Shown: positions 11,769-28,211 of the stretch, in pieces | How the letters are laid out: each line of letters begins with the position of its first letter | Position numbering within the stretch: position 1 is the first letter of the stretch | From: Thioalkalivibrio thiocyanodenitrificans ARhD 1 | GTDB taxonomy: Bacteria > Pseudomonadota > Gammaproteobacteria > Ectothiorhodospirales > Ectothiorhodospiraceae | Length of the DNA: 64,000 bases | NCBI RefSeq assembly: GCF_000378965.1 | Contig: NZ_KB900536.1 | Location: 2,481,407-2,545,406, forward strand | Direction: 5' to 3' | Notes under the pieces: generated by a model | Told to the model about the DNA's origin: nothing | What the model saw: the letters and a program-made list of their open reading frames with translations, nothing else | Databases searched by the model: none | Program-made: the position numbers and the translations under genes

Positions 11769-11772
11769 TCAC
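11664..11772. repeat. Heptamer hairpin locus C
   Basis: The left arm 11664-11691 is four heptamers (GTGAGAA, GGGTGAA, TTGAGAA, GTGGGAA), and the right arm 11745-11772 is its near-perfect inverse. The loop of about 53 bases includes a T-run. The right arm runs to within a few bases of the sucrose synthase stop codon. Confidence 0.88.
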
Positions 11773-14147
11773 TTCAAAAGCGCCATCGGCCTGAACTGCA
11801 GCGTGTGGAACATCTCCAGGTAACGCTGGGTTTCCGCACGCTCCAGATTGGTCACATACTTCCAGAAGCCGTAGATGCGCGACAGGGTCATCATGCGCTG
11901 TGCATACAGGCGCCAGGTATAGCGTTCCTCCACCCGGCTGATGGCGGCCCGGGAGACGGCATCCCAGTGCGCCGGGTCCGCGGCGCAGCGCTCCAGGAAC
12001 TCCGCGAGCTGTATCGCCGCGTCCTCGCCGTGATTCGGGTCGATATGAAAGCCGCTCTCCCCGTGTTCGATGATCTCCAGCGGGCCGCCGTAGCGGGTGG
12101 CGAAGGTGGGCAGGCCCGAGGCCATGGCCTCGATCACCGTCAGGCCGAAGGCCTCGAACAGGGCCGGCTGCACGAAGACCCCCCGGTGATCGGCGATGCA
12201 GCGGTAGATCTCGCCGGATACCGTCTTGTCCAGGCGAACTCCCAGCCAGCGTACGCATCCGTCCAGGCCATGCTCGTCGAACAGCGCGTGCATGCATTCG
12301 ATCTGGGTCTGCTCCTCCCGGTCGTCGGAATGATGCGGGTCCACGGCACCCGCCACCACCACCAGGTTGGCCTGATTGCGCAGCTCCGGGTGTTCGGCAT
12401 ACCAGGACACCAGGCCCGTGATGTTCTTGATCCGGTCCAGGCGCGCCATGGTGAAGATCACGGGGCGGCCGGGATCCGACAGCACTCCCCGGGCATCGTC
12501 CCGGGGCCCGCCGAAGATCATGTCCTCGATCTCGCCGTGCAGTCCGCTGATGCGGTGTTCCGTGTCCGTATACGGAAAGTACACGCGCTCGTCGGCGCCC
12601 GGCGAGACGATGTTGAACTTGGGGTCGAATACGTTGATGCCGTGCACCACCCGATACAGATCCGGCATGGCAAAGTGCATGTAGCTCTCGTACTGGCCGA
12701 TCTCGTCGTTGGTGCCGGCGATCTCCTGGTAGGTGCTGGTGATGATGAAGTCCGCCGAGTTCATGGCGATCAGGTCGGCGGTGAACTGCGTGGCGAAGTG
12801 GTACTGGGCGTCGTTGTCCTTCCAGTAGAGATCCGAATAGAGGTACTTGGTCTTCTCCAGGGCATGGGCGATGTTGCATTGGGTGACGTGCATGCGCGCC
12901 GAGAGCAGAGAGGCCACCAGGTTGCCGTCGGAGTAGTTGCCGATAATCAGGTCGGGCCGCCCGCCCAGGTCCGCCAGAATGGTGCGTTCCACCTCGTCGG
13001 CGAAGCGCTCCAGGTAGGGCCAGATCTCGAAGCGGGAGATCCACTGGGGGATGATCTCCCCGTCGTCACTTCGGAACGGCACCCGCAGAATGCGCGCGCC
13101 CTCGGTGCCGGAGATGGCCTCCTCGGGCTCATCGCAGGTGGTGCCCCGGGCCTCCGGGATGAGGCGGGTCACCACGCGGATGCGGGGCTCGATCTCCAGG
13201 CCCTGCTCCGAGAGCCGGTCGCGCATCTCGCGCTCCAGCGCCCTGACCTGGTCCAGGATGTAGACCACCTGTCCGCCCGTGTCCGGCAGGCCGAGCACGC
13301 CGGCCTGGCCGAAGAAGCCATGGGGGGAGAGAATCAGGAGGCTGAAGATCATGGGGATGCGCGCCAGGAAGCGCTCCAGGCTCTCCGGAGACGGGGCCTC
13401 GAGCAGCTCCGAAAGCAGGCGCAGCGTGTCCAGGACCCTGCCCGCGTCCCGTCCCCAGCCGGGTTCGAAGCCCAGATGCTGCAGTTCGTGGGCGATCTCG
13501 GGCCAGGCGGTCTCACGGCGCTGCCGGGACAGGTATTTCTCCGCATCGCGGATGGCGGTGCGCAGGGCGTCCACGTTGCCGATGTGGTCGTTGATCATCA
13601 GCAGCCGGCCGTCGCAGCGGTGCTCGCGCAGGAACAGGAACAGCTTGTCGAGCCCGCCGTTGGCCCGATCGAACAACTGGCTGGAGAGCTTGCGGTTGAG
13701 AAACTCCATGCCGCGTCCGATGGACCGGGTCTCGCGCATCTGCGGGAACTCCCGGTTGAAGGGTTCGATGTCGAACTCCAGCGGCCGCGTGTGACGCGGC
13801 GCGGGGCAGACCAGGTGCTCCTTGATCTCCAGGAACCGGCTCACGGTGAGTTCCTCCACCCCCAGATCATCCGCGTGAATGCGCACGAACGACCAGCGTC
13901 CGATGCGCGGGCGCAGGGCGAGACACACCCAGGGGGCAGCCAGGACCGCCTCCTGGCAGTCATCCACGATGCGCGCCAGCGGGCTGTCTGCGAGTCCGGC
14001 GTCGTCCTGCTCCAGGCAGAGGGCGTCGAACACGTCGCGTAGCTCCGAGCGCAGCAGGAAGGGGCGGCCCAGGGAAAGGTAACGCCGCAGCAAGAGGTAG
14101 GCGGCCTCGCGTTGTGCCTGCAGGCGGTCCTGAAGCTGCTGGGTCAT
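11769..14147 (-). CDS. Sucrose synthase
   Basis: The 792-aa GT-B enzyme interconverts sucrose plus NDP and NDP-glucose plus fructose. Its length is normal for bacterial sucrose synthases. The N-terminal regulatory half is followed by the glycosyltransferase core with [18 protein letters not shown] (about 290-307), [11 protein letters not shown] (about 580) and the [20 protein letters not shown] nucleotide-sugar loop near 690. A sucrose-phosphate synthase is not present here, and fructokinase-type genes lie elsewhere in the window. In non-photosynthetic bacteria this enzyme links sucrose to glycogen or compatible-solute metabolism. It is a single gene, divergent from marR. Confidence 0.95.
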
Positions 14148-14235
14148 GGGGGTCTCCGAAGGCGGGCGGGAGGCACATCCGACACCGGCGCCCGCGTTGA
14201 GTTTGTGGCGTGCCAGATGTTATTGTACAAAAATA

Positions 14236-14248
14236 GTTTGTTGCAAAC
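14236..14248. promoter_or_regulatory. Possible MarR operator
   Basis: GTTTG and CAAAC flank a TTG spacer 15 bases before the marR start, inside an AT-rich promoter-like stretch that also contains the palindrome TTGTACAA. The place suits autoregulation, but no binding motif for this regulator is known to me. Confidence 0.35.
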
Positions 14249-14262
14249 AGATACTGTAAGCC

Positions 14263-14787
14263 ATGTCCATGACGCATTCCTCCGTGGCCGGATCGCCGGG
14301 TCCCGACGATGCCCGCACCCCGCCCGCCGGCGTGCAGTCGGTGATCCGCCAGTTGCGCGTGGTCTACCGTGCCCTGCAGACCCATTCCCGCAGCATCGAG
14401 AAGGCCTGCGGGGTCAGCGCCGCGCAACTGTGGGCGCTCTGGGAACTGCGCCGCGCGCCGGGCCTGAGGGTGGGGGACCTGTCGCAACGCCTGTTGATCC
14501 ATCCCTCCACGGCTTCCAACATGCTCGATAAGCTGGAGGACAAGCGGCTGGTGGAGCGCCGCAGGACGGGCATGGACCAGAGGGTCGTAAGCCTGTTTCT
14601 CACCGACCGGGGTGAAACCCTGCTCCGGGCGGCGCCCGCGCCGGCGCAGGGGGATCTCAATCGTGCGCTTCAGGCGCTGCCGGAACAGCAGCTGGCCGCC
14701 CTGGAGTCCGGCCTGGCAGCGCTGCTGGAGCGCATGGAGGCGCGTGATGAGCGCGCGGCCCTTCGCCCCATCGCGGGGGATGAGTAA
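14263..14787 (+). CDS. MarR family transcriptional regulator
   Basis: This 174-aa protein has the winged-helix core of MarR regulators: VRVGDLSQRLLIHPSTASNMLDKLEDKRLVERRR spans the recognition helix and wing (about 73-108), with dimerisation helices at both ends. It is divergent from sucrose synthase and is the first gene before the carbamoyl/amide metabolism set, so it may control that set in response to a metabolite. Another ATG lies two codons downstream. Confidence 0.88.
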   Translation: MSMTHSSVAGSPGPDDARTPPAGVQSVIRQLRVVYRALQTHSRSIEKACGVSAAQLWALWELRRAPGLRVGDLSQRLLIHPSTASNMLDKLEDKRLVERRRTGMDQRVVSLFLTDRGETLLRAAPAPAQGDLNRALQALPEQQLAALESGLAALLERMEARDERAALRPIAGDE

Positions 14788-14875
14788 CCAGTCACGTACG
14801 CCGCAGCGGTCTGCGTTGAGTATGGGGACCTGTGCGCGGTTCCATCCGGCATGTCCGGGAGGAGCACAACGATAC

Positions 14876-16162
14876 ATGAATGAAATCAGAGTCAACTTCG
14901 AACGCCTGCGCGAGGATGTGCAGAGTCTCTCACGCATCGGCCAGAAGGAGGATCAGGGGATCCACCGCATGGCCTTCAGTGACGGCGACCTGGAGGGCAG
15001 GCGCTGGTTCCGCTCGCGCATCGAGGACGCGGGTCTCGATGTCTTCGAGGACGGCGCCGCCAATCTGCACGCGCGCCTGGACTGGGACGGCAAGCGCGCC
15101 AGCGTGATGATGGGTTCGCACCTGGACACCGTGCCGGGCGGGGGTCCGCTGGACGGCGCGCTCGGCGTGCTGGTGGGCCTGGAGGTGATGCGCACCATCC
15201 AGGAGGCGGGTGTCCCGCTCAGGCATCCCCTGGAAGTGGTGGACTTCACCGACGAGGAGGGCCGTTTCGGCGGCCTGTTCGGTTCGCAGGCGATTGCCGG
15301 GCAGCTCACGCCGGCGACCATCCACAATGCCCGGGATCTGGATGGTGTGGCCCTCACCGAGGCCATGGCCGCCTGGGGTCTGGATGCCAACGCGGCATTG
15401 TTCGCGCGCCGCGCACCGGAATCCATCCATGCCTATCTGGAGCTGCATATCGAACAGGGCCCCGTCCTGGACCGCAACCATGTGCCGATCGGCATCGTGG
15501 ATGCCATCACCGGGCTCTTCAAGTGGGATGCGCACTTCAGGGGCCAGACCAACCATGCGGGCACGACCCCCATGGACATGCGTGCCGACAGCTTCCAGGG
15601 CCTGGCGGAGTTTGCCGGCGAGATCAATCGCATCCTGGAGGAACACGGCAGCCCCCACAGCCGCGCCACCATCGGCCGCGTGGAACTCAAGCCCGGGGCC
15701 GCCAATACGGTGCCCGGCGAGACCGGCTTCTCCCTGGATGTGCGCGACACCGACGGGGAGACCCTGAGGAACCTGGCGGACGCGTTTCGCCGTACGCTCT
15801 CCGCCCTGGCGCGCCGGCGTGACCTGATGTTCGAGTTCGAGGTGCTCTCCGAGATCCCGCCCACGCGCTGCGATCCCGGTCTGGTGCAGCTGCTGACCGA
15901 GACCGCCGATCGGCTGGGCCTAGAACACCTGCGCATGCCGAGCGGCGCCGCGCATGATGCCCAGATCATGGGCTCGGCGACGCGCACCGGCATGATCTTC
16001 GTGCCCAGTATCGAGGGCAAGAGTCATTCGGCCTCCGAGTGGACACCGTGGGAAGACATCGAGAAAGGCGCCAACCTGGCGCTTCACGCCATCCTTCAAC
16101 TGGCCGCTGCGGATGCGGGCACGACCACCGGGGAGCAGCAAGCGAAGAGGAAGAAGGCATGA
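14876..16162 (+). CDS. Zn-dependent N-carbamoyl-amino-acid hydrolase (HyuC/AllC type)
   Basis: This 428-aa M20-family amidohydrolase removes a carbamoyl group from N-carbamoyl compounds (L-amino acids, beta-ureidopropionate or allantoate, depending on member). The di-metal ligands are visible: H82 (GSHLDT), D93 (PLDG), E127/E128 (DFTDEEGRF), H191 with E193 (LHIEQG) and H384 (KSHSASEWT). The central NHAGTTPMDMR stretch (about 217-227) is typical of the carbamoylase branch. The ATG at 14876 follows GGGAGGAGC. Its stop overlaps the next start (ATGA), coupling it to the amidase-like gene. In context I infer that it degrades the product of the carbamoyltransferase downstream. Confidence 0.9.
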   Translation: MNEIRVNFERLREDVQSLSRIGQKEDQGIHRMAFSDGDLEGRRWFRSRIEDAGLDVFEDGAANLHARLDWDGKRASVMMGSHLDTVPGGGPLDGALGVLVGLEVMRTIQEAGVPLRHPLEVVDFTDEEGRFGGLFGSQAIAGQLTPATIHNARDLDGVALTEAMAAWGLDANAALFARRAPESIHAYLELHIEQGPVLDRNHVPIGIVDAITGLFKWDAHFRGQTNHAGTTPMDMRADSFQGLAEFAGEINRILEEHGSPHSRATIGRVELKPGAANTVPGETGFSLDVRDTDGETLRNLADAFRRTLSALARRRDLMFEFEVLSEIPPTRCDPGLVQLLTETADRLGLEHLRMPSGAAHDAQIMGSATRTGMIFVPSIEGKSHSASEWTPWEDIEKGANLALHAILQLAAADAGTTTGEQQAKRKKA

Positions 16163-16905
16163 ACGACAAGCCGGACAACGTGACCGACCTGTCCAGGTTC
16201 GACAACGTCGACCCGCTGCGTGATCAGTATCGCGATACGCTGATCACCAACCGGGAACTCAAGCGTGAGCTGGGGGCGCACCATGCGGCCCTGCTGTGCA
16301 TCGATCTCCAGTATCTGGATGCGGCGCGTGGCCACGGGGTGTTCGCGTACGCGGAGCGCCCGGGTGTGCCCAGGGAGGCCGACGAGTATTACTTCCATCG
16401 CCTGGAGACCCTGGTGCTGCCCAACGTGCGGCGCCTGCAGGATGCCTTCCGGGCCGTGGGCCTGGAGGTCATCCACACCCGCATCCAGTCGCTCACCGCC
16501 GACGGGCGCGACCGGGGCCCGGGCCACAAGCGGCTCGACCTGCACGCCGCGCCGGGATCCAGGGAGGCGGATTTCCTGGAGATCGTGGCGCCGCAGGGCG
16601 ACGAGATCGTTATCAACAAGACCGCCAGCGGCGTGTTCACCTCCACCAATCTGGAATACGTGCTGCGCAACCTGGAGATCACGTCCCTGTTCGTGGCGGG
16701 CGTGTACAGCAACGAGTGCGTATCCACGGCCATCCGCGACGCCTGCGACCTCGGGTTCTACGTCACCCTCATCGAGGACGGCTGCGCCACGGTGACCCCG
16801 GAGATGCAGAAGGCGACGCTGACCACCATCAAGGACCGCTATGCCCGTGTCATGACTACGGACGAGGCGCTGGCCGAGATCGCCAAGGTGGAAGAGGCCT
16901 CCTGA
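16159..16905 (+). CDS. Isochorismatase-like cysteine hydrolase (amidase type)
   Basis: This 248-aa member of the isochorismatase/nicotinamidase fold shows the catalytic triad D49 (LLCIDLQ), K154 (INKTASGVF) and C187 (NECVSTAIRDA). Members hydrolyse amides such as nicotinamide, N-carbamoylsarcosine or ureidoacrylate through the Cys. A roughly 40-residue N-terminal extension precedes the fold. It is translationally coupled to the carbamoyl hydrolase, which suggests the two remove a carbamoyl and an amide group from one substrate. The exact substrate cannot be read from sequence. Confidence 0.88.
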   Translation: MNDKPDNVTDLSRFDNVDPLRDQYRDTLITNRELKRELGAHHAALLCIDLQYLDAARGHGVFAYAERPGVPREADEYYFHRLETLVLPNVRRLQDAFRAVGLEVIHTRIQSLTADGRDRGPGHKRLDLHAAPGSREADFLEIVAPQGDEIVINKTASGVFTSTNLEYVLRNLEITSLFVAGVYSNECVSTAIRDACDLGFYVTLIEDGCATVTPEMQKATLTTIKDRYARVMTTDEALAEIAKVEEAS

Positions 16906-17002
16906 GCCGGGAAAGAGCCGCGCCAAAGACTATAAACAGGGAATCACCCCGTAATCCGTCGCGTTGACCATTGTTCATCCGTGACCCGAAGAGAGGCACG
17001 CC

Positions 17003-18091
17003 ATGGTAGTTCCAAACGATCCGCAGCTGGAGCGTCCGCTGCAACCCAAGGACGGCACCGCAGGCATCGAACGCCCGCGCGCCCTGTTCGAAAGCCTGCC
17101 CGAGGACCCTCGCCCGCTGATGTCGCTGTCCAGCCGTCACGTGGTGTCCTCGCGCCAGTTCGACCGGGACACGCTGCTGCAGGTGTTCCGCCTGGCCGCG
17201 CAGTTCGAGAGTACGCCGGCGCTGCTGCACCCGCCGCTGGCGGGCAAGATCCTCATCAGCGCTTTCTATGAGCCCAGCACGCGCACCCGCCTGTCCTTCG
17301 AGAGCGCCTGGCATCGGCTGGGCGGGGACATTATGTCCATTACCGATCCCAAGAGCACGGGCATGGCCAAGGGCGAATCCCTCTCGGACATCGCCGAGAT
17401 GTTCAACAACTACGGGGATGTGATCGTGCTGCGCAACAGCGAGGCCGGCTCCATCTACGAGATGCTGGACTCCCTGCGCATTCCCATCATCAACGCCGGT
17501 AACGGGATCGATGAGCATCCCACCCAGGCAATGGCGGACGTCTACGCCATGCTCAAGTGGCGCCCCGAGCTGGCTCGCCCGGACCTGCCGGCCGCAGAGC
17601 GGATCCGGATCGGCATCATCGGCGTGCCGAGCCGCATGCGCACGGTGCGAAGCCTGTTGCTGCTGCTCACCCTGTTCTCCTCGTCCGTCGAAGAGGTGGT
17701 GATCCTCAGCCGGGAAGACGATCTCTTCGACGAAGGGCAGCGCGAGGAGTTGGCCGGCGCGGGCCTGAATATCCGGGTCGCCACGGATCTGGATGGTGAG
17801 TTGCCCGGTCTGGACGTGGTCTACATCAACGCCATCGCCTGGGTGGGCGATACCTTCGAGGCCATGGGCATGGACATGCGCCTGACCCCCGATTCACCGC
17901 TCAAGGAAGGTGCGATCATCCTCCACCCGCTGGCGCGCGGCGAGGAGTTGTCCACGGACCTCGACAAGACACCCCACAACTGGTACTTCGCCCAGGCGCG
18001 TGGCGCGGTGTTCATCCGCATGGCCCTGCTCACCTGCATGGTGCGCCGGATCAGCGAGGTGATGGACACCCCGGACCCGTCCCGGGCCTGA
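17003..18091 (+). CDS. Aspartate-carbamoyltransferase paralog of altered specificity
   Basis: The 362-aa protein has the PyrB fold with about 40 extra N-terminal residues. Carbamoyl-phosphate residues are kept: STRTR (92-96), K123, R144, HPTQ (172-175) and HPLAR (308-312), and an Arg matching R167 is present in PSRMRTVRS. The segment that in E. coli PyrB carries R229 and Q231 (TRVQKER), which bind the aspartate side chain and amine, reads INAIAWVGDTFE instead. So it should carbamoylate an amino group, but probably not of aspartate. It is not next to pyrC or pyrR. Neighbours (carbamoyl hydrolase, amidase, amidotransferase) point to a special N-carbamoyl compound. Confidence 0.85.
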   Translation: MVVPNDPQLERPLQPKDGTAGIERPRALFESLPEDPRPLMSLSSRHVVSSRQFDRDTLLQVFRLAAQFESTPALLHPPLAGKILISAFYEPSTRTRLSFESAWHRLGGDIMSITDPKSTGMAKGESLSDIAEMFNNYGDVIVLRNSEAGSIYEMLDSLRIPIINAGNGIDEHPTQAMADVYAMLKWRPELARPDLPAAERIRIGIIGVPSRMRTVRSLLLLLTLFSSSVEEVVILSREDDLFDEGQREELAGAGLNIRVATDLDGELPGLDVVYINAIAWVGDTFEAMGMDMRLTPDSPLKEGAIILHPLARGEELSTDLDKTPHNWYFAQARGAVFIRMALLTCMVRRISEVMDTPDPSRA

Positions 18092-18129
18092 ATTGATTCA
18101 ACGGCTGCCGCGAAGATGCGGAGTAAAGC

Positions 18130-18152
18130 GATCCCGGGATGCCGCCGGGATC
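18130..18152. terminator. Hairpin between carbamoyltransferase and amidotransferase genes
   Basis: GATCCCGG pairs with CCGGGATC around a 7-base loop in the 183-base gap. No T-run follows, so it may be an attenuator or an RNA-stability element rather than a full terminator. Confidence 0.45.
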
Positions 18153-18274
18153 AGGCATCGGGGATTCGCCGCCCGCGGGGCGCTTCTTATCCTCCGGATC
18201 CCGACACCCGCTTTCCTCCGCGCCTCCCCGGCAAGCCTTGACCCTGATTTCCGATTTCGCAGGAGAATGCACAC

Positions 18275-20287
18275 ATGTGTGGAATAGCTGGCGTGATGAA
18301 CGCCGACCCCAATCAACCCGTCGATCCCGAGACCCTGGTGGCCATGGCGGCCATCCAGTATCACCGCGGGCCGGACGGTTTCGGTTACCGGGTGGAGAAG
18401 GACCGTGGCGTGGGTTTCTCCCATGCCCGGCTCACCATCATCGACCTGGACGAGAACCGCGGCCGCCAGCCGTTCGTCTCCCATGACGGGAACCTGTTGC
18501 TGGCCGTGAACGGCGAGCTCTACGACTATAAGCGCATCCGCACCGAACTGACCTCCCGGGGCGCCAAGTTCCGCACCAAGAGCGACTCGGAGATGGTGCT
18601 GCATCTGTATGAGCGCTACGGCCTGGAGGAGACGCTCAAGCAGATGCGCGGCGAGTTCGGCGTGGCCCTGTACGATCGTGCCCGCGACCGGCTCATGCTG
18701 ATCCGCGACCGTTTCGGCGTGAAGCCCCTCTACTGGACCGAGGTGGATGGCCGGATCGTCTTCGGTTCCGAGATCAAGGTGCTGTTCGCGCACCCGGCCG
18801 TGCCGCGCCGCTTCAATGCCAGGGGGCTCTATCACCAGCTCATGCAGACGGTGGTTCCCGGCACGACGGCCTTCGACGGCATTCACCAGGTCAAGCCGGG
18901 CCACGTGGTGACCATCGAGCGCCGTCACGGCAAGTTCGAGATCCACGACGAGCGTTACTGGGATATGGACTTCCCGTTGCTCTCCGAGCGGGGCGAGCCC
19001 GAGGACGACGAGGTCTACATCGAAGGCGTGCGCCGTGAGCTGATGGAGGCCGTGCAACTGCGCCTGGAGGCGGACGTGCCGGTGGCGTGCTACCTCTCCG
19101 GCGGAATCGATTCCTGCATCACGCTGGGACTGTCCGCCGCCAACCAGCAGGCGCCGGTCAAGGCCTTCACCATCGGCTTCGACAACGCCGACTACGACGA
19201 GACCGCCATCGCTACGGAGATGGCCGAATCCGTGGGGGCCGATCAGGACATCATGCGGCTGAACGCCGACCATCTCTACGACAACCTCGTCGAGACCCTG
19301 TGGCACGCCGAGCGCACCATCTACAACACGCTGGGCGTCGCCAAGCTGCTCATGAGCCGGCATGTGAACAAGGCCGGCTACCGGGTGGTGGTCACCGGCG
19401 AGGGTTCCGATGAGCTGTTTGCCGGATATCCCGCCTTCCGCCGCGACATGTTTCTGCACGGCCTCGATACCATGGATGCGGCCGAGCGGGCGAGCTGGGA
19501 GCAGATGCTGGCCGAGAGCAACAAGCTGTTCTCCGGCGCCATGCTCGCGGAGAACGAACTGAACGATCCGGCCCTGAACGACCTGGTGGGCTTCACGCCG
19601 TCCTGCCTGCAGCCGTGGCTGGCGAGCGCAGCCCATGTGCCCGGTCTCCTGTCCGCGGCCATGCGCGAACAGGTGAAGGGCTATGAACCGGGGCGTGCCA
19701 TCGCGGAGGCGCTGGACGGCGACATGATCGAGGGGCGCCATCCTCTGGACAAGGCCCAGTACGTGTGGATCAAGACCATGCTGGAAGGGCAGATCCTCAC
19801 CTGGGGCGGTGACCGGGTGGACATGGCCAACTCCATGGAGGCGCGCCCGCCGTTCCTCGACCATCACCTGGCCGAGTTCGCCACGCGGATTCCGCCTTCC
19901 ATGCGCATTCGCGGCCGTACGGAGAAGTACGTGCTGCGCGAATCCATGAAGGGGCTGCTGCCCAAGGTGCTCTACGAGCGCGAGAAGTTCGCGTTCATGG
20001 CGCCCCCGGCGCATACGGATCCGAAGAAGTGGGCGGCCATGCGTGCGCTGGCCGATGAGTACCTGTCCGACGAGGCCATCGAGGCCGCCGGCCTGCTGGA
20101 CCCCGCGGGCGTGAAGGCGCTGTTCGATCTGCACGAGGCCGAGGACACCACCGTCTCCACCCAGGTGCAGCTGGATGCCGTGATCAACCACATGATCGGC
20201 GTGCAGGTCCTGCACCGCCACTTCGTCGCCCGGGACGTTCCGGCGCTGGCGCGGCAGAAGGCGAAGGAACTGGGGTGGGCGGCCTGA
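18275..20287 (+). CDS. Asparagine-synthetase-like glutamine amidotransferase
   Basis: This 670-aa enzyme combines an N-terminal class II glutaminase (nucleophile Cys2, then HRGPDGFG and NGELYDYKR) with a C-terminal ATP-pyrophosphatase synthetase domain (SGGIDS at about 272-277, GEGSDELFAGY near 390). It uses glutamine ammonia and ATP to turn a carboxylate into an amide. Typical AsnB is about 550 aa, so this one is long. With the divergent carbamoyltransferase just upstream and MscS downstream, I infer an osmolyte-type amide product, though free asparagine synthesis is possible. CAGGAG precedes the ATG. Confidence 0.88.
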   Translation: MCGIAGVMNADPNQPVDPETLVAMAAIQYHRGPDGFGYRVEKDRGVGFSHARLTIIDLDENRGRQPFVSHDGNLLLAVNGELYDYKRIRTELTSRGAKFRTKSDSEMVLHLYERYGLEETLKQMRGEFGVALYDRARDRLMLIRDRFGVKPLYWTEVDGRIVFGSEIKVLFAHPAVPRRFNARGLYHQLMQTVVPGTTAFDGIHQVKPGHVVTIERRHGKFEIHDERYWDMDFPLLSERGEPEDDEVYIEGVRRELMEAVQLRLEADVPVACYLSGGIDSCITLGLSAANQQAPVKAFTIGFDNADYDETAIATEMAESVGADQDIMRLNADHLYDNLVETLWHAERTIYNTLGVAKLLMSRHVNKAGYRVVVTGEGSDELFAGYPAFRRDMFLHGLDTMDAAERASWEQMLAESNKLFSGAMLAENELNDPALNDLVGFTPSCLQPWLASAAHVPGLLSAAMREQVKGYEPGRAIAEALDGDMIEGRHPLDKAQYVWIKTMLEGQILTWGGDRVDMANSMEARPPFLDHHLAEFATRIPPSMRIRGRTEKYVLRESMKGLLPKVLYEREKFAFMAPPAHTDPKKWAAMRALADEYLSDEAIEAAGLLDPAGVKALFDLHEAEDTTVSTQVQLDAVINHMIGVQVLHRHFVARDVPALARQKAKELGWAA

Positions 20288-20289
20288 AA

Positions 20290-20358
20290 GTGGGAGGTGT
20301 GAATTGGGAAGTTGGAGAAGAGATCCTGACTTCCCACTTCTAAATTCCAACTTCGCAC
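20290..20358. repeat. Heptamer hairpin locus D
   Basis: The left arm 20290-20317 reads GTGGGAG, GTGTGAA, TTGGGAA, GTTGGAG. The right arm 20331-20358 is four inverted heptamers of the same family, less well matched than at other loci. It begins two bases after the amidotransferase stop. Confidence 0.8.
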
Positions 20359-20398
20359 TTCGTTCGACCATGTAGATACAACCGCTGGAGCATCAAAC

Positions 20399-21322
20399 AT
20401 GGAACTCGTCCTAGAATACTTCGAACAGGTTCAATGGGACGATCTGATCTTCTCGACCCTGCGTATCCTGCTGATCCTGGTGATGGCCTGGGCGGTTATG
20501 TATGCCGTGCGCACGGCGCTGTCGCGTATGGAACGGCGGCTCGTCGAGCGGGGCAAACAGCAGGGGGACGTCCCCTCGGAGGCCAGCAAGCGCGCCGAGA
20601 CCCTGGTGCGGCTGCTGCGCCAGGCGGTGATGATCGTCGTCTGGGTGATGGCCCTGCTGGTGATCCTCAACGAGTTCGGCGTCTCGGTCACGCCCATTCT
20701 GGCCTCGGCCGGCGTGCTGGGGCTTGCGGTGGGCTTCGGCGCCCAGAACCTGGTGCGGGACATCATCAGCGGCTTCTTCTTCATCCTGGAGAACCAGGTG
20801 CGGGTGGGGGACGTGGTGGTGGTCAACGGCACCGGCGGGCTGGTGGAGTCCATCAACTTCCGGACACTGGTGCTGCGCGATCTGGAAGGCAAGGTGCACA
20901 TCTTTCCCAACGGCACCATCGACGCGGTGACCAACCTTACCCGGGAATGGTCCGCCTACGTGTTCGACATCGGCGTGGCCTACAAGGAGGACACCGACAG
21001 GGTGGTGGATATCCTCAAGGCCGTGGGCGAGGAGATGAGGGCCGACGCGGAATACGGCCCGAACATCATCGAGGACATGGAGATCTTCGGCGTGGACAGG
21101 TTCGGGGATTCCGCGGTGGTCATCAAGGGGCGCATCAAGACCCGGCCCATCAAGCAGTGGTACGTGGGACGCGAGTTTCTGCGTCGCGTCAAGTATGCCT
21201 TCGACGCCCAGGGTGTGGAGATCCCCTTCCCGCATCGCACCCTCTACTTCGGCGAGGCAAGCCCTCCCTTCCTTGCCCGGATGCTCAACCGGGAGCCGGC
21301 TTCCACGGACATCGATCAATAA
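20399..21322 (+). CDS. Small-conductance mechanosensitive channel (MscS)
   Basis: This 307-aa inner-membrane protein has three hydrophobic segments (about 15-35, 74-92 and 95-120). The third contains the Gly/Ala-rich pore helix GLAVGFGAQNLVRDIISGFF. The beta domain follows (VRVGDVVVVNGTGGLVESINFRT, FPNGTIDAVTNLT). MscS opens on hypo-osmotic shock to release solutes. Its position behind the proposed osmolyte genes fits a release valve. The repeat hairpin in between may separate the transcripts. Confidence 0.95.
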   Translation: MELVLEYFEQVQWDDLIFSTLRILLILVMAWAVMYAVRTALSRMERRLVERGKQQGDVPSEASKRAETLVRLLRQAVMIVVWVMALLVILNEFGVSVTPILASAGVLGLAVGFGAQNLVRDIISGFFFILENQVRVGDVVVVNGTGGLVESINFRTLVLRDLEGKVHIFPNGTIDAVTNLTREWSAYVFDIGVAYKEDTDRVVDILKAVGEEMRADAEYGPNIIEDMEIFGVDRFGDSAVVIKGRIKTRPIKQWYVGREFLRRVKYAFDAQGVEIPFPHRTLYFGEASPPFLARMLNREPASTDIDQ

Positions 21323-21360: not shown

Positions 21361-21882
21361 ATGCACGACAGCATCGCACTGCGCGCACGCAACAACAGAC
21401 GCCCGGTCCTCGCGATCCTCGGCCTGCTGCTTGCGCTGGCGTGGGCGCTCCCCGGCCTCGTGATGGCCCAGGGCGGCGCCGCGGATCAGCCTCAACTGGT
21501 ACAGGTCGTCAAGAGCAACAAGTCCTTCCCCGAGACCCTGAGGGTCTTCCGGGAGGAAGTGGTCAAGGCGGGTTGGAGTGTGCTCAATGTCAACAATATG
21601 GCGGGCGTGCTGTCCGAGCGGGGCTTCACCCTGGATCCGGTGGTGATTCTGGATGTATGCAGCGGCAAGTACAGTGCGCGGATTCTGGGCAATGACGACT
21701 ATCGCCCCATCTCCGCCTTCATGCCGTGCCGCGTGAGCATCTACCAGACCTCCGGCGGGGAGGTGTTCATCGCCCGCATGAACACCGGTGCCTTCGTGGA
21801 CATGATGCCGCCTGAGGTGGCCGAGATCATGTCCGCGTCTGACAGCGAGATCGAGGAGATCATCGCCAGGACGGTTCGCTGA
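21361..21882 (+). CDS. DUF302 protein, exported
   Basis: The 173-aa protein begins with a cleavable signal peptide (RRPVLAILGLLLALAWALPGLVMAQ), so it acts in the periplasm. The mature part shows the DUF302 pattern: FPETLRVFREEVVKAGWSVLNVNNM followed by LDPVVILDVCSGKYSARIL and PCRVSIYQTSGG. DUF302 domains occur in sulfur-oxidising and other bacteria, and their function is unknown. A good site (AAGGAG) precedes it, 39 bases after mscS. Confidence 0.85.
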   Translation: MHDSIALRARNNRRPVLAILGLLLALAWALPGLVMAQGGAADQPQLVQVVKSNKSFPETLRVFREEVVKAGWSVLNVNNMAGVLSERGFTLDPVVILDVCSGKYSARILGNDDYRPISAFMPCRVSIYQTSGGEVFIARMNTGAFVDMMPPEVAEIMSASDSEIEEIIARTVR

Positions 21883-22636: not shown

Positions 22637-23428
22637 ATGACCGATAACTCCTGCGTCTATCTGGTGGGAACGGGACCGGGTGACCCGGACCTGCTGACCA
22701 TCCGGGCACTGCGGCTGATCGAGCGGGCCGATGTGGTTGTCTATGATCGGCTGATCTCCAGGGGTGTGCTGGACCTCATCCCGGCGGGCGCAAGCCGGAT
22801 CTACGTGGGCAAGGAGACGGATCGCCACACCCTGCCCCAGGACGAGATCAACCGGCTGCTGGTCAGGGCGGCCGCCAGGGCGCGGGTGGTGGTGCGGCTC
22901 AAGGGCGGTGATCCGTTCGTGTTCGGACGCGGCGGCGAGGAGGCCGAGTACCTGCGCCGGCACAACGTGCGCTTCGAGATTGTCCCGGGCGTGACCGCGG
23001 CCACCGCCGTTACCGCGTATGCCGGCATTCCGCTCACCCATCGCGGGCTGGCGACCGGCGTGCAGATCATTACCGGCCACAGCCGCAGCAACCTGCCCCT
23101 GCCCCATGACTGGGCGCGTCTGGCCAATTCCGACCATACGCTGATCATCTACATGGGGCTCTCCAATATCGACGAGATCAGTGCCCGGCTCATCCAGGCT
23201 GGCCTGTCCGGCGACACGCCCGCCGCGGCAGTCCAGGATGGCGCGACCACGCAACAGCGGCGCATCATCACCACGCTCGCCGAACTGGGTCCGCGGGCCC
23301 GCGAGGCGAAGTTTCGCCCGCCGGTGCTGTTCATCGTCGGCAGGGTGGTGTCCATGGCCGCGGCGCTGGACTGGTATCGCCCCGAGTCCCCGGAGGCGCG
23401 CGAGGACGCGCGTGAGCAGAGTGCGTAA
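22637..23428 (+). CDS. nirE: Uroporphyrinogen-III C-methyltransferase NirE
   Basis: This 263-aa SAM-dependent enzyme methylates uroporphyrinogen III at C2 and C7 to precorrin-2, the entry step to heme d1. Motifs seen are VGTGPGDPDLLT at the N-terminus, KGGDPFVFGRGGEE (about 87-100) and VPGVTAATAVTAYAGIPLTHR. The length is that of the single-domain enzyme without a CysG dehydrogenase domain. It opens the nir operon and overlaps nirC. Confidence 0.93.
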   Translation: MTDNSCVYLVGTGPGDPDLLTIRALRLIERADVVVYDRLISRGVLDLIPAGASRIYVGKETDRHTLPQDEINRLLVRAAARARVVVRLKGGDPFVFGRGGEEAEYLRRHNVRFEIVPGVTAATAVTAYAGIPLTHRGLATGVQIITGHSRSNLPLPHDWARLANSDHTLIIYMGLSNIDEISARLIQAGLSGDTPAAAVQDGATTQQRRIITTLAELGPRAREAKFRPPVLFIVGRVVSMAAALDWYRPESPEAREDAREQSA

Positions 23429-23753
23429 CCGGATGTCCGCATGGCTGCTGCTGGGCGCGCTGCTGAGTCTGCCGGCGGTGTCCCCGGCGGAGCCGCAGCT
23501 CAGTGAGCCGCGCAAGGCCGAGCTGCGCCATCTGCTCAAGCAGGACTGCGGCTCCTGCCACGGCCTGACCATGCGCGGTGGGCTGGGCCCGCCGATCACG
23601 CCGCAGGCCCTGGCCGAACGCGACCGGGAGACCATGGTGGCCACCGTCCTGTACGGGCGCCCCGGCACGCCCATGCCGCCCTGGTCTACTATCCTGACGG
23701 AGGACGAGGCGAGATGGCTGGTCGATCTGCTTTACGAGGGGGATATCCGGTGA
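23412..23753 (+). CDS. nirC: Small cytochrome c NirC
   Basis: This 113-aa periplasmic monoheme cytochrome has a signal peptide (MSAWLLLGALLSLPAVSPAE) and one heme site, CGSCH, near residue 49; a Met ligand is likely in TPMPPW. NirC proteins pass electrons in nitrite reductase maturation or function. The GTG at 23412 follows GAGGA; an ATG at 23433 is an alternative. It overlaps nirE upstream, and its TGA overlaps the nirF GTG. Confidence 0.88.
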   Translation: MSRVRNRMSAWLLLGALLSLPAVSPAEPQLSEPRKAELRHLLKQDCGSCHGLTMRGGLGPPITPQALAERDRETMVATVLYGRPGTPMPPWSTILTEDEARWLVDLLYEGDIR

Positions 23754-24949
23754 GACCTTTGGAACGACTCGGGCGGTGGCTGACACTGGTGCTGCTCATG
23801 GCCCTGGGCCAGGCCGCGGTGGCCGGTGGCGAGGCGGGGCAGTTGCGCGGCACCGGCGACCTGGGCGTGATCGTCGAACGGGCCACCGGCAGCGTGCAGA
23901 TCGTCGACACCACCACCCGCGAGAGCCTTGCGCGGATCACCGGCCTGGGCGATCTCTCCCATGCCTCGGTGAAGTACTCGCGCGACGCGCGCTACGCCTA
24001 CGTGTTCGGGCGCGACGGCGGCCTCACCCAGTTGGACCTGCTCACCCGGCGCATCACCAATCGCATCATCCAGTCGGGCAACAGCATCGGCGGCGCCATC
24101 TCCCAGGACGGCCGCCTGCTGGCCGTGGCCAACTACGACCCCGGCGGCGTGAAGGTCTTCGACGCGCGCACCCTGGAACTGGTGGCCGACATCCCGGCGG
24201 TGGACGACAAGGGCGAGCGTTCCAAGGTGGTGGGGCTGGTGGATGCCCCGCGCCAGCGCTTCGTGTTCACCCTGTTCGAGGCCGGTGAGATCTGGGTGGC
24301 GGATTTCAGCGAGGGCAAGGAGCCGCGCATCACCCGACACCGGGAGGTGGGTCGCCAGCCCTACGATGCCCTGATCACGCCCGACGGGCGCCACTACATC
24401 GCCGGCCTGTTCGGCGAGGACGGCATGGCCCTGCTGGACCTGCGCAACCCCGATGCCGGCGTGCAGCGCATCATGGACGGCTACGGCCGCGGCGACGAAC
24501 CACTGCCGGTGTTCAAGATGCCCCACCTGGAGGGCTGGGCCATGGCGGGCGACTACGCCTTCATGCCGGCGGTGGGCCACCACTCCGTGCTGGTGGTGAA
24601 CCGGCGCGACTGGAGCGAAGTGGCGCGTATCCCGGTGCATGGTCAGCCCATCTTCGTCATGGCAAGCCCCGACCAGCATGCGGTATGGGTCAACTTCGCC
24701 TACCCGGACAATGACACCCTGCAGATCATCGACGTGGACACCCTGGAGATCACCGGCGAACTGAAACCGGGCCCGGCGGTGCTGCACATGGAGTTCACCC
24801 CGCGCGGCGAGCACATCTGGGTGTCGGTGCGCGACGCTGACGAGGTGCACATCTACGACGCATACTCCCTGGAGCGGCTCGGGCGCCTGAATGTGGAGAG
24901 TCCCAGCGGCATCTTCTTCACCGCCCGCGCCCACCGCATCGGACTGTGA
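23750..24949 (+). CDS. nirF: Heme d1 biosynthesis protein NirF
   Basis: This 399-aa protein starts with a signal peptide (LTLVLLMALGQAAVAGG) and folds as the heme d1-type eight-bladed propeller related to the NirS C-terminal domain, without a cytochrome c part. NirF acts in the periplasm on a late step of heme d1 formation. Typical segments are GDLSHASVKYSRDARYAYVFGRDG and VGRQPYDALITPDGRHYIAGLFGEDG. Initiation at the GTG that overlaps the nirC stop (GTGA) is the natural choice. Confidence 0.92.
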   Translation: MRPLERLGRWLTLVLLMALGQAAVAGGEAGQLRGTGDLGVIVERATGSVQIVDTTTRESLARITGLGDLSHASVKYSRDARYAYVFGRDGGLTQLDLLTRRITNRIIQSGNSIGGAISQDGRLLAVANYDPGGVKVFDARTLELVADIPAVDDKGERSKVVGLVDAPRQRFVFTLFEAGEIWVADFSEGKEPRITRHREVGRQPYDALITPDGRHYIAGLFGEDGMALLDLRNPDAGVQRIMDGYGRGDEPLPVFKMPHLEGWAMAGDYAFMPAVGHHSVLVVNRRDWSEVARIPVHGQPIFVMASPDQHAVWVNFAYPDNDTLQIIDVDTLEITGELKPGPAVLHMEFTPRGEHIWVSVRDADEVHIYDAYSLERLGRLNVESPSGIFFTARAHRIGL

Positions 24950-25416
24950 GGCGCGCCCCCGTGGAACTCTCACCCCTGGAGAAGCACCTGCTCAACGACT
25001 TCCAGCACCATCTGCCGCTCAGTCCGCGGCCCTATGCGGACATGGCCGCGCAACTGGGGGTCAGCGAGGAGGAAGTCCTCTCCGCCCTTGCGCGGCTTCA
25101 TGAACAGGGGCTGGTGAGCCGGGTAGGCGCGGTGTTCCGGCCCCACAGTATCGGTGCCAGCACCCTGGCCGCCATGGCGGTGCCGCCGGAGCGGCTCGAG
25201 GCGGTGGCCGGGCTCATCAACGGTTACCCGAACGTCAATCACAACTACGAGCGAGAACACGCGTACAACCTGTGGTTCGTGGTGACCGCCAGGGACGAGG
25301 ACGAACTGTGCGCGGTGCTCGAGGACATGGAGAGCCGCACGGGCATTCCCATCCTCGCCCTGCCGTTGCTCGAGGATTATCACATCGACCTGGGGTTCGA
25401 CCTGCGATGGACATGA
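24946..25416 (+). CDS. nirD: Siroheme decarboxylase subunit NirD
   Basis: This 156-aa Lrp/AsnC-like protein has an N-terminal HTH (RPYADMAAQLGVSEEEVLSALARL) and the heme d1-type core with NHNYEREHAYNLWFVVTA. In the NirDLGH set it helps remove two acetate carboxyls from siroheme to give 12,18-didecarboxysiroheme; it is an enzyme subunit, not a classical regulator. A GTG start overlaps the nirF stop. It is one of four paralogs in a row. Confidence 0.9.
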   Translation: MRRAPVELSPLEKHLLNDFQHHLPLSPRPYADMAAQLGVSEEEVLSALARLHEQGLVSRVGAVFRPHSIGASTLAAMAVPPERLEAVAGLINGYPNVNHNYEREHAYNLWFVVTARDEDELCAVLEDMESRTGIPILALPLLEDYHIDLGFDLRWT

Positions 25417-25979
25417 ACCGGTTCAGGAACCATCTGCGAGGCATTCGCGGGCGGGTCGGGTCGCTGGACCGCACCGACATCGCGCTGATCGGGGCCATCG
25501 AGAAGGGCCTGGCGCTCACGCCCCGGCCCTATGCGGAGATCGCCCGCCGGCTCGGGCTGAGCGAACAGCAGGTGGTGGATCGCCTGGCGGCGTTGCGCGA
25601 CCGCGGTGTGATCAAGCGTCTGGGCGTGGTGGTGCGCCACCGGGAACTGGGCTACCGGGCCAACGCCATGGTGGTCTGGGACGTGCCGGACGACAGAGTG
25701 GCCGAGCTGGGGCCGCGCTTCAGCCGCTATGACTTCGTCACTCTGTGTTACCGGCGGCCCCGCCAGCTGCCGGAATGGCCTTACAACCTGTTCTGCATGA
25801 TCCACGGCAAGTCCCATGACGAGGTGCGGGCGCGCATCGTGCAACTGGTGCAGGAATGCGGCCTGCGGTCCGTCGACCACGAGGTGCTGTTCAGCCGCCG
25901 CCGCTTCAAACAGTGCGGTGCGCGCTATCACGGCAGCGATGCGCCCCGGCCGACGTGCGAGGCGGGCTATGGCACATGA
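25407..25979 (+). CDS. nirL: Siroheme decarboxylase subunit NirL
   Basis: This 190-aa paralog has the HTH RPYAEIARRLGLSEQQVVDRLAALRDRGVIKRLGVV and the NirL/H-type core VTLCYRRPRQLPEWPYNLFCMIHG, with a His-containing segment VDHEVLFSRRRFKQ near the end. It should pair with NirD in the decarboxylase. The ATG at 25407 overlaps the nirD stop by ten bases; a C-terminal tail of about 20 residues is not well conserved. Confidence 0.88.
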   Translation: MDMNRFRNHLRGIRGRVGSLDRTDIALIGAIEKGLALTPRPYAEIARRLGLSEQQVVDRLAALRDRGVIKRLGVVVRHRELGYRANAMVVWDVPDDRVAELGPRFSRYDFVTLCYRRPRQLPEWPYNLFCMIHGKSHDEVRARIVQLVQECGLRSVDHEVLFSRRRFKQCGARYHGSDAPRPTCEAGYGT

Positions 25980-26439
25980 GGCCCCCGCCGGTGCACTGGA
26001 CGCCCTGGACCGGCAGATCATCAACACGCTGCAGGACGGATTCCCGATCTGCGAGCGGCCCTACGCGCAGGTGGCGGCTCGACTGGGCACCGACGAGCAG
26101 ACCCTGATCGGGCGTCTCGGGCGCCTGCTGGATGAACGTTTCCTGACCCGCTTCGGTCCCATGTATCAGGCGGAGCGCCTCGGGGGCGCGTTCTCCCTGG
26201 TGGCCATGCGCGTGCCTGCCGGAGACTTCGAGCGCGTCGCAGGCATCGTCAACGGATTCACCGAGGTGGCCCACAACTACGAGCGCGAGCACGCGTTCAA
26301 CATGTGGTTTGTGCTCGCCACCGAGACCCCGCAGGCCATCGCCGAGGTGCTCGAACGCATCGAGCAGGCCAGCGGTTATCCCTGCTACAACATGCCCAAG
26401 CTCGAGGAGTATTACGTGAGGCTCAAGTTGCCCGTCTGA
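25969..26439 (+). CDS. nirG: Siroheme decarboxylase subunit NirG
   Basis: This 156-aa protein is a NirD-like paralog with HTH RPYAQVAARLGTDEQTLIGRLGRL and core AHNYEREHAFNMWFVLAT. It overlaps nirL by 11 bases. D/G-type and L/H-type subunits alternate in this operon, as expected for two heterodimer pairs. Confidence 0.88.
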   Translation: MAHEAPAGALDALDRQIINTLQDGFPICERPYAQVAARLGTDEQTLIGRLGRLLDERFLTRFGPMYQAERLGGAFSLVAMRVPAGDFERVAGIVNGFTEVAHNYEREHAFNMWFVLATETPQAIAEVLERIEQASGYPCYNMPKLEEYYVRLKLPV

Positions 26440-26443
26440 CCTC

Positions 26444-26974
26444 ATGAACCGCGCGACATCACAACCGACCCCGCCCTCGCGGCCGGATGACGAGGCCCCC
26501 ATCGACGCCCTGGACCGGGCGTTGATCGTCGCCACCCAGTCCGGCCTGCCATTGGTCCCGGAGCCGTATCATGCGCTGGCCGGGGAGCTGGGCGTCGACG
26601 CGCAGGAGGTCATGGACCGGCTGCGCAGCATGCAGGAACGGGGCATCATCCGGCGCATCGCCGCGGTGCCCAACCACTACCGGCTGGGATTCACCCACAA
26701 CGGCATGAGCGTGTGGAATGTGCCCGACGACCGCATCGGCGAACTGGGCCCCCGGGTGGGGGCCCTGGATTTCGTCAGCCACTGCTATCACCGGCCGAGA
26801 CATCCGCCGCACTGGCCCTACAACCTGTTCGCCATGGTGCATGCGGACAGCCGCGAGGAGGCCGAGCGCAAGGTGTGCATCATCTCCGAACTGCTGGGGC
26901 CGGACGATCTGGGCCACGAGGTGCTGTTCAGCCGGCGCATCCTCAAGAAAACCGGCCTGCGACTGACGGCCTGA
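26444..26974 (+). CDS. nirH: Siroheme decarboxylase subunit NirH
   Basis: This 176-aa NirL-like paralog carries VSHCYHRPRHPPHWPYNLFAMVHA and ends with GHEVLFSRRILKKTGLRL, the standard C-terminus of this branch. It starts four bases after the nirG stop and forms the second subunit pair with NirG. Confidence 0.88.
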   Translation: MNRATSQPTPPSRPDDEAPIDALDRALIVATQSGLPLVPEPYHALAGELGVDAQEVMDRLRSMQERGIIRRIAAVPNHYRLGFTHNGMSVWNVPDDRIGELGPRVGALDFVSHCYHRPRHPPHWPYNLFAMVHADSREEAERKVCIISELLGPDDLGHEVLFSRRILKKTGLRLTA

Positions 26975-26984
26975 GGACAAGACC

Positions 26985-28211
26985 ATGTTTAGAATCAGCC
27001 AGTACATGCGCGAACTCCACAGCCTGGTCGAGGGCGCCGACGCGGTCTTGCCGCCCCACCGCCGGCCCCCGGGGCCGGTGGTGATCTGGAATCTCATCCG
27101 GCGCTGCAATCTCACCTGCAAGCACTGCTACTCCATCTCGGCGGACAAGGACTTCCCGGGCGAGCTGAGCACGCAGGAGGTGTTCACGGTGATGGACGAC
27201 CTCAAGGGCTTCGGCGTGCCGGTGCTGATCCTCTCCGGCGGCGAGCCGCTGCTGCGACGGGACATCTTCGAGGTCTCGCAACGCGCCAAGGCCATGGGTT
27301 TCTACGTGGGCCTTTCCACCAACGGGACGCTCATCACCCGCGACAACATCGGGCCCATCGCCGAGGTGGGCTACGATTACGTGGGCATCAGCATCGACGG
27401 CATCGAGGAGACCCATGATCACTTCCGTCGGCGCAAGGGGGCGTTCGAGGAGTCCATGAACGGCATCCGCCTGTGCCGGGAGAACGGCATCAAGGTGGGC
27501 ATGCGCTTCACCATCACCATGGACAATGCCCACGAACTTCCCGAACTGCTCGCCCTGATGGAGCGCGAGGACGTGGACAAGTTCTACCTGTCGCATCTGA
27601 ACTACGCCGGACGCGGCAACCGCAACCGCAAGGACGATGCCTTTCACCAGGTCACCCGCCAGGCCATGGACCTGCTGTTCGACACCTGCTGGCAGGATGT
27701 CCGGGCCGGGCGCCACCGGGAGTTCGTCACCGGCAACAACGACGCGGACGGCGTGTACCTGCTGTTCTGGGTGGCGCGCCACTATCCCGAGCATCTTGAC
27801 TACATGCGCGCCCGGCTCGAGCAGTGGGGCGGCAACTCCAGCGGCGTGAACATCGCCAACATCGACAACCTGGGCAACGTCCACCCGGACACCTTCTGGT
27901 GGGACTACAACCTGGGCAATGTGCGCGAGCGCCCCTTCTCAGACATCTGGCAGGACACCCGCGACCCGCTCATGGCGGGGCTCAAGGCCGCGCCCCGGCC
28001 GCTCAAGGGGCGCTGCGCCGAATGCGCGTACCGGTCGGTGTGCGGCGGCAACACACGGGTCAGGGCCTGGCAGCTGACCGGCGACCCGTGGCAGGAGGAT
28101 CCGGCCTGTTACCTCACCGACGAGGAGATCGGCGTCAGCGGCACGGGCGAGCGGCTGCAGATGTTCCCCTACTCGCGCCGCAGCATCCCGGAGAAGTATG
28201 ACTTTCGATGA
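26985..28211 (+). CDS. nirJ: Radical SAM heme d1 synthase NirJ
   Basis: This 408-aa radical SAM enzyme has the 4Fe-4S motif C41-N-L-T-C45-K-H-C48 and the GGEPLL SAM segment, with a C-terminal auxiliary cluster region (CAECAYRSVCGG and a further Cys in EDPAC). It replaces the two propionates of didecarboxysiroheme with oxo groups. It follows nirH by ten bases with a normal ribosome site and is separated from nirN by a short GC hairpin. Confidence 0.93.
   Translation: MFRISQYMRELHSLVEGADAVLPPHRRPPGPVVIWNLIRRCNLTCKHCYSISADKDFPGELSTQEVFTVMDDLKGFGVPVLILSGGEPLLRRDIFEVSQRAKAMGFYVGLSTNGTLITRDNIGPIAEVGYDYVGISIDGIEETHDHFRRRKGAFEESMNGIRLCRENGIKVGMRFTITMDNAHELPELLALMEREDVDKFYLSHLNYAGRGNRNRKDDAFHQVTRQAMDLLFDTCWQDVRAGRHREFVTGNNDADGVYLLFWVARHYPEHLDYMRARLEQWGGNSSGVNIANIDNLGNVHPDTFWWDYNLGNVRERPFSDIWQDTRDPLMAGLKAAPRPLKGRCAECAYRSVCGGNTRVRAWQLTGDPWQEDPACYLTDEEIGVSGTGERLQMFPYSRRSIPEKYDFR

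Follow-up and report, generated by a model that had tools for sequence, protein, structure and literature searches.

A candidate pathway for the compatible solute N-alpha-carbamoyl-L-glutamine 1-amide, built around a conserved carbamoyltransferase and AsnB-like amidotransferase gene pair

A stretch of 64,000 nucleotides from Thioalkalivibrio thiocyanodenitrificans ARhD 1 (contig NZ_KB900536.1, positions 2,481,407 to 2,545,406; hereafter the window) contains at 14263-21322 six plus-strand genes in a row. They encode a MarR-family regulator, an M20-family hydrolase, an isochorismatase-fold hydrolase, a carbamoyltransferase resembling aspartate carbamoyltransferase (ATCase) and here labelled CT, an AsnB-like amidotransferase and an MscS-type channel. 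CT and the AsnB-like gene occur strictly together and constitute the invariant core of a conserved module, in which the hydrolases are optional. We propose, with a probability of about 0.7, that CT carbamoylates glutamine and the AsnB-like enzyme amidates the product to N-alpha-carbamoyl-L-glutamine 1-amide (CGA), that the two hydrolases recycle it and that MarR controls the operon; the substrate, the product and the osmotic role are what we infer. That the pair makes some carbamoyl amino-acid amide, a plainer claim, is highly probable.

The six genes had been described in a sequence-only reading of the window, and both family searches and the positions of open reading frames (ORFs) bear that description out (Table 1). 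The two groups of CGA are exactly those that CT and an amidotransferase would add.

Table 1 Features of the cluster and its border, in window coordinates.
Feature	Position	Strand	Supporting match
Sucrose synthase, divergent neighbour of MarR	11769..14147	-	TIGR02470, 1181 bits
Operator-like palindrome TGTTATTGTACAAAAATAG, just before MarR	14218..14236	.	core TTG[TC][AG]CAAA
MarR-family regulator, first gene of the operon	14263..14787	+	PF12802, 52.1 bits; PF01047, 46.6 bits
M20-family N-carbamoyl-L-amino-acid hydrolase, proposed carbamoyl breaker	14876..16162 (start most likely 14876)	+	NF006771, 539 over 399
Isochorismatase-fold amidohydrolase, proposed amide breaker	16159..16905	+	PF00857, 111.8 bits
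CT, ATCase-like carbamoyltransferase lacking the side-chain site for aspartate, proposed to act on glutamine	17003..18091	+	PF02729 and PF00185, over cut-off
AsnB-like glutamine-dependent amidotransferase, proposed amidating enzyme for the alpha-carboxylate of N-carbamoylglutamine	18275..20287	+	PF00733, 293 bits
MscS-type channel adjoining the cluster, outside the conserved module	20399..21322	+	PF00924, PF21082, PF21088

Distribution of the gene pair

In an even sample of 370 gammaproteobacterial genomes (the class sample), CT is found in 23 genomes from 14 families and the AsnB-like gene in the identical 23 (Fisher p 4e-37, kinship not corrected); this genome-wide search scores, for each genome, only the best 3-5 first-look candidates. 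All of these pairs lie on one contig within 1.1 kb, except one that is split over two contigs (22 of 23 against 1). The phylum of a Spirochaetaceae genome (G012) served as a replicate: both genes occur in the same 10 of 198 genomes, each pair on one contig. In the order sample 41 of 47 genomes carry CT and likewise 41 the AsnB-like gene; among those of good quality all 38 carry each. The two lists differ by one incomplete genome each way (G053, G057). The association proposed by the sequence-only reading extends far beyond this strain.

The gene neighbourhoods were surveyed in the best 80 of 185 relatives from a scan of named genomes. An AsnB-like gene accompanies CT at 77 of these 80 loci; two of the three exceptions end at a contig edge, and in the third, from Thiorhodospira (L011), both genes are present, 0.7 Mb apart, if its genome is G070, with which it agrees in contig and position. 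Eight loci (seven from Leptospiraceae or Spirochaetaceae and one from an unplaced metagenome-assembled genome, MAG) have another gene order, namely CT, M20, isochorismatase-fold, AsnB-like: the four genes stay together although rearranged. Their recurrence in gammaproteobacteria and on spirochaete contigs shows that this is no chance neighbourhood. Trees and residue tables comprise the 71 of the 80 loci with an AsnB-like ORF longer than 600 amino acids (aa), plus the window (72 rows). In both trees, whose outgroup branches are very long and whose support is SH-aLRT only, a clade of six spirochaete rows plus one unplaced MAG is nested within the gammaproteobacterial rows, which suggests transfer as a unit.

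Carbamoyltransferase

CT remains under both general ATCase cut-offs (NF002032, 183.6 vs 263; TIGR00670, 181.8 vs 236.95). With a hidden Markov model of the CT family, full-length members reach 558-663 bits and E. coli PyrB 184, while one spirochaete-group row (G540) scores 385 and a CT read in two frames 476. The latter belongs to G034, a genome of the same family as that of the window, in which CT matches in two frames (L099:8651-9711) and its neighbours match in full, due either to real decay or to a sequencing error. Two alignments, A1 (37 rows) and A2 (34 rows), were hand-picked from the same best 80 of 185 relatives; the AlphaFold model of CT made with 37 rows has a mean pLDDT of 83.8 and a pTM of 0.86, and ATCases make up all 50 of the matches listed by Foldseek.

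Residues S52, T53, R54, T55, K84, R105, H134, R167, L267 and R296 (E. coli numbering) are invariant in all 72 CTs, and the equivalent of Q137 is kept in 71. From structural work on ATCase, we take R167 to be the holder of the alpha-carboxylate, and R229 and Q231 to be the holders of the side-chain carboxylate of aspartate. The position of R229 is occupied by A (54 rows), S (14), T (3) or K (1), and that of Q231 by A (57), S (13), L (1) or V (1). Both residues are retained, according to the alignment, in the PyrB of the window's own genome, and the loop following residue 231 is shortened in CT with respect to PyrB. The loss of the aspartate side-chain site, first noticed in the single window sequence, is thus confirmed over 72 rows. 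Judged by these residues, CT is a transcarbamoylase of changed specificity, and its conserved positions are compatible with carbamoylation of the alpha-amino group of some amino acid that is not aspartate.

The original proposal would have been in difficulty if CT were the sole PyrB of its genome. The genome of the window, however, has three genes with the carbamoyl-phosphate domain: CT, the ornithine carbamoyltransferase ArgF (470 bits over 306) and a separate PyrB (402 bits over the cut-off of 263 that CT fails). The last is followed by a dihydroorotase-like gene, which falls below its cut-offs because it is cut by the end of the examined stretch. Three or four such matches are present in 22 of 24 CT-bearing genomes; a single genome has four, two of which are halves of one gene. 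Idiomarina seosinensis has two, and it is among the seven other genomes spot-checked (ten stretches), all of which have a canonical PyrB with the R-x-Q motif.

AsnB-like amidotransferase

The AsnB-like protein passes the asparagine synthase cut-off (TIGR01536, 420.6 over 267.1). Its glutaminase and synthetase residues are invariant in 72 of 72 rows: C2, R52, N79, G80, E81, D104, the SGG.DS motif, E376 and K571. It scores far under the model of the amidotransferase for N-acetylglutaminylglutamine amide, NAGGN (TIGR03104, 299.7 vs 570.1), and under that of the XrtA/PEP-CTERM amidotransferase (TIGR03108, 386.8 vs 816.9).

A bona fide NAGGN amidotransferase is encoded in the same genome outside the window (L095:9532-11328; TIGR03104, 977 bits), and the AsnB-like protein is 30% identical to it. 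This separate enzyme and the TIGR03104 score rule out the AsnB-like protein as the NAGGN enzyme. No NAGGN ligase (TIGR03103) exceeds its cut-off in the window's genome, where a partial-model match (469 vs 569 bits) lies far from the NAGGN amidotransferase; among the listed ORFs of at least 140 aa, no MarR was seen beside that amidotransferase.

Hydrolases and membrane proteins

Breakers for both groups had been predicted, and the two hydrolases of the operon indeed belong to families that could remove a carbamoyl and an amide. M20 passes the hydantoinase/carbamoylase amidase model (TIGR01879, 372.2 over 204); its best-scoring equivalog is ErtE, an N-carbamyl-L-glutamate amidohydrolase (391, under the cut-off of 520), and the nearest solved sequence is 3n5f, an N-carbamoyl-L-amino acid hydrolase. 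The isochorismatase-fold gene shares its first 4 bases with the end of the M20 gene, and the solved relatives of its product include N-carbamoylsarcosine and biuret hydrolases and RutB. M20 ORFs occur at 57 and isochorismatase-fold ORFs at 51 of the 80 loci; in some cases, Kangiella among them, the M20 match is distant (46-48%) and lies on the opposite strand. In the examined stretch of the 16 Idiomarinaceae loci neither hydrolase has a match at E 1e-5, and CT, the AsnB-like gene and a symporter are present.

This sodium/solute symporter (SSS superfamily) and a small FN3-like membrane protein are conserved parts of the module. The symporter occurs at 67 of the 80 loci, typically directly before CT; three of them, when scanned, gave 130-136 bits, under the TIGR00813 cut-off of 184. 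The clusters of the window and of Ectothiorhodospira are without it, and every one of the 38 good genomes in the order has a relative; that of the window's genome lies outside the window, about 45 kb upstream of CT. The small protein, found at 63 of the 80 loci, has 150-200 residues with what look by eye like a signal peptide, a single FN3-like domain and a single membrane helix; no Pfam match over cut-off was obtained in the eight members scanned. In G030 and in the genome of the window it precedes the symporter, of which it is perhaps an accessory subunit. Coordinates listed for this association are L101:5110-5733 and, in the window's genome outside the window, G000:C1:2451803-2453218.

MscS has a close match near the cluster at only 7 of the 80 loci, with one further weak match (29%), by which it is ruled out as a conserved member of the module. 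Of the CGA pathway as the sequence-only reading conceived it, the enzyme pair, the CT residues, the link to a producer and the hydrolase families stand, and MscS as a defining part falls. The symporter, the small FN3-like protein, the palindrome before MarR and the recognition of the pair as an invariant core go beyond that reading.

Regulator and neighbouring genes

The MarR of the window shares 59% identity with its positional counterpart in a cluster from Thioalkalivibrio, and MarR lies directly before the M20 gene in 29 loci as well as in the window. The core of the palindrome is found within -200..+60 of the MarR start at 29 of the 37 loci with MarR; the background, 42 matches in 644155 bases, corresponds to 0.017 expected per 260 bases. 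Perfect 18-base palindromes occur at 8 of the 30 loci examined. The window's own palindrome is imperfect (7 of 9 pairs) and no better than single-locus shuffles, so that its support comes from the recurrence of the core across loci and not from its own shuffle test.

Sucrose synthase lies within the examined stretch at 12 of the 80 loci, including all 8 of Ectothiorhodospira; it places the cluster beside a gene for sucrose, another osmolyte of these bacteria. On the other side, 3' of MscS, lies a DUF302 protein gene (21361-21882). At the three loci nearest to that of the window (L004, L054, L070) the cluster is likewise followed by such a gene. Further on, at 22637-28211, lies an apparent heme d1 or denitrification set, judged from the ORF list alone: a uroporphyrin methyltransferase, a cytochrome c, a NirF-like protein, several Lrp-type NirD/L/G/H-like proteins and a radical SAM NirJ-like protein. 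No tRNA genes were found within the window.

Producer and salt setting

CGA was isolated from Ectothiorhodospira marismortui and is a compatible solute, according to passages of two papers that both cite Galinski and Oren 1991 (PMC1224877, PMC3857566). A third, in the part consulted, lists E. marismortui as DSM 4180T and mentions CGA in other purple sulfur bacteria too (PMC7824335). The contig of E. mobilis DSM 4180 (L014) carries MarR, M20, isochorismatase-fold, CT and AsnB-like genes beside sucrose synthase. The expected link between cluster and producer is thereby found in the type strain of the named producer. The portions searched of the open-licence PMC literature name no genes for CGA.

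At the best 80 of 185 loci, the genera that bear names are Thioalkalivibrio, Ectothiorhodospira, Thiorhodospira, Thiohalobacter, Idiomarina, Pseudidiomarina, Aliidiomarina, Kangiella, Aliikangiella, Ketobacter and Thiogranum, and they are marine, saline or soda-lake bacteria. In the class sample a strong BCCT betaine-type transporter (E 1e-80) is present in 17 of the 23 CT genomes and in 66 of the 347 without CT. One distant genome of that sample has a BCCT gene within 2 kb of the CT/AsnB-like pair (G408:C34:42605-48913).

At high salt, T. versutus D301 raises its nitrate assimilation and glutamine synthetase transcripts and not its betaine genes, as stated in the portion of the RNA-seq study at hand (PMC9062515). 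This pattern fits a nitrogen-rich second solute and equally a nitrogen store, and is no proof of either. The examined parts of the same text do not mention carbamoyl, asparagine or aspartate; nor does the word carbamoyl turn up in the main text of the paper on Thioalkalivibrio and cold or of those on K90mix, T. sulfidophilus and Thiohalobacter.

Discussion

We can now outline the proposed pathway. CT would carbamoylate L-glutamine at the alpha-amino group from carbamoyl phosphate, with the enzyme's Arg167 equivalent holding the alpha-carboxylate and the emptied Arg229/Gln231 site taking up the longer, neutral side chain. The AsnB-like enzyme would then activate the alpha-carboxylate with ATP and convert it to the amide, a second glutamine donating its amide nitrogen, in the way that AsnO/PA3459 acts on N-acetylglutaminylglutamine. 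For removal, the isochorismatase-fold enzyme would cut the amide, after which M20 would take off the carbamoyl and give back glutamine. Expression of the operon is probably controlled by MarR, with the conserved palindrome 5' of its gene, and leaked solute could be recaptured by the symporter together with the small FN3-like membrane protein.

Several points weigh against this pathway. No computed result tells glutamine from other amino acids as the acceptor of CT, and glutamine is our inferred choice. The pair is universal in the order, which makes its presence in DSM 4180 only moderately telling. In the part available, a review knows CGA from one organism only (PMC3857566), and the Thioalkalivibrio papers, as far as consulted, report betaine and sucrose. 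All 38 good genomes of the order nevertheless have the pair, and the Thioalkalivibrio loci that carry it include T. versutus AL 2 (L027) and T. sulfidiphilus (L070); its product there must be minor, conditional or different. The association of BCCT with CT (Fisher p 7e-8) is not corrected for kinship. Finally, in a 2.4-Mb MAG (G016; L052, L098) CT is the only carbamoyl-phosphate-domain (OTCace_N) match found. The AsnB-like match of the same MAG spans residues 1-497 only.

The alternative that survives best, although we hold it to be unlikely, follows the same two-step logic with glutamate or some other amino acid as acceptor: the product would be a related carbamoyl amino-acid amide, and CGA perhaps be made only in Ectothiorhodospira. 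The slight variation of positions 229 and 231 across the 72 CTs speaks for it, as do the single producer of the review and the activity on N-carbamyl-L-glutamate of the M20 equivalog, notwithstanding its sub-cut-off score. Against it, nearly every row has a small, uncharged residue at each of the two positions, which would leave a glutamate side chain without an obvious partner, and there is one solute with both groups known from an organism that carries the genes.

It is considerably less probable that the product is a nitrogen store, a signal or a secondary metabolite, with an incidental link to salt. CGA does hold four nitrogens, which dedicated hydrolases could set free. This idea has to contend with the compatible-solute description of CGA (a passage of PMC1224877), the frequency of BCCT in CT genomes and the adjoining sucrose synthase at 12 of 80 loci. 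The marine, saline or soda-lake habitats of the named genera count against it as well.

A second ATCase and an ordinary asparagine synthase that are neighbours by chance can hardly be upheld: ATCase and asparagine synthase are the nearest relatives of the two proteins in fold or sequence, but the sub-cut-off scores of CT, its replaced Arg229/Gln231 and the separate PyrB, which together rule CT out as a second PyrB, already contradict this explanation, as does the strict co-occurrence in two genome groups. Least credible is a cluster for breaking down carbamoylated amino acids or compounds of the hydantoin type, which the two hydrolases and the symporter would suit but which is already weakened by an invariant core of two synthetic enzymes and by the 16 Idiomarinaceae loci with no match to either hydrolase in the examined stretch.

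CGA has been known since 1991, and the synthesis by CT and the AsnB-like enzyme favoured here supplies two candidate core genes and a strain, DSM 4180. If true, the transcarbamoylase family gains an acceptor, the NAGGN way of masking an alpha-carboxylate serves a second osmolyte, and genes that family resemblance would label aspartate carbamoyltransferase and asparagine synthase are corrected. We give even odds to a wider consequence, that a solute regarded as peculiar to one halophile would be widespread among bacteria adapted to salt.

Each enzyme can be set beside a known system. CT shares with PyrB the fold, the carbamoyl-phosphate site and the equivalents of Lys84, Arg105, His134, Gln137 (71 of 72) and Arg167, and differs from it by the replacement of Arg229/Gln231, the shortened loop after residue 231 and the scores below the general cut-offs. 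M20 resembles the N-carbamoyl-L-amino-acid hydrolases, whose hydantoinase/carbamoylase family cut-off it passes, and fails that of ErtE. The isochorismatase-fold enzyme has the fold of the biuret, N-carbamoylsarcosine and ureidoacrylate amidohydrolases and lies far below the four matching NCBIfam equivalog cut-offs.

The NAGGN pathway (AsnO/PA3459, Ngg/PA3460 and the MarR PA3458) offers a parallel for the whole. AsnO/PA3459 amidates a glutamine alpha-carboxylate, and in Pseudomonas aeruginosa the neighbouring PA3458 represses this operon of an AsnB-like enzyme and an acetyltransferase, as reported in the part consulted of PMC8070244. In both systems an AsnB-like amidotransferase, here by our proposal, masks the alpha-carboxylate as an amide, another enzyme masks the amino end and a MarR gene stands beside the operon. 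The amino end is masked by an acetylated glutamine in NAGGN, whereas it would be masked by a carbamoyl in CGA, and the operon described here has hydrolases of its own.

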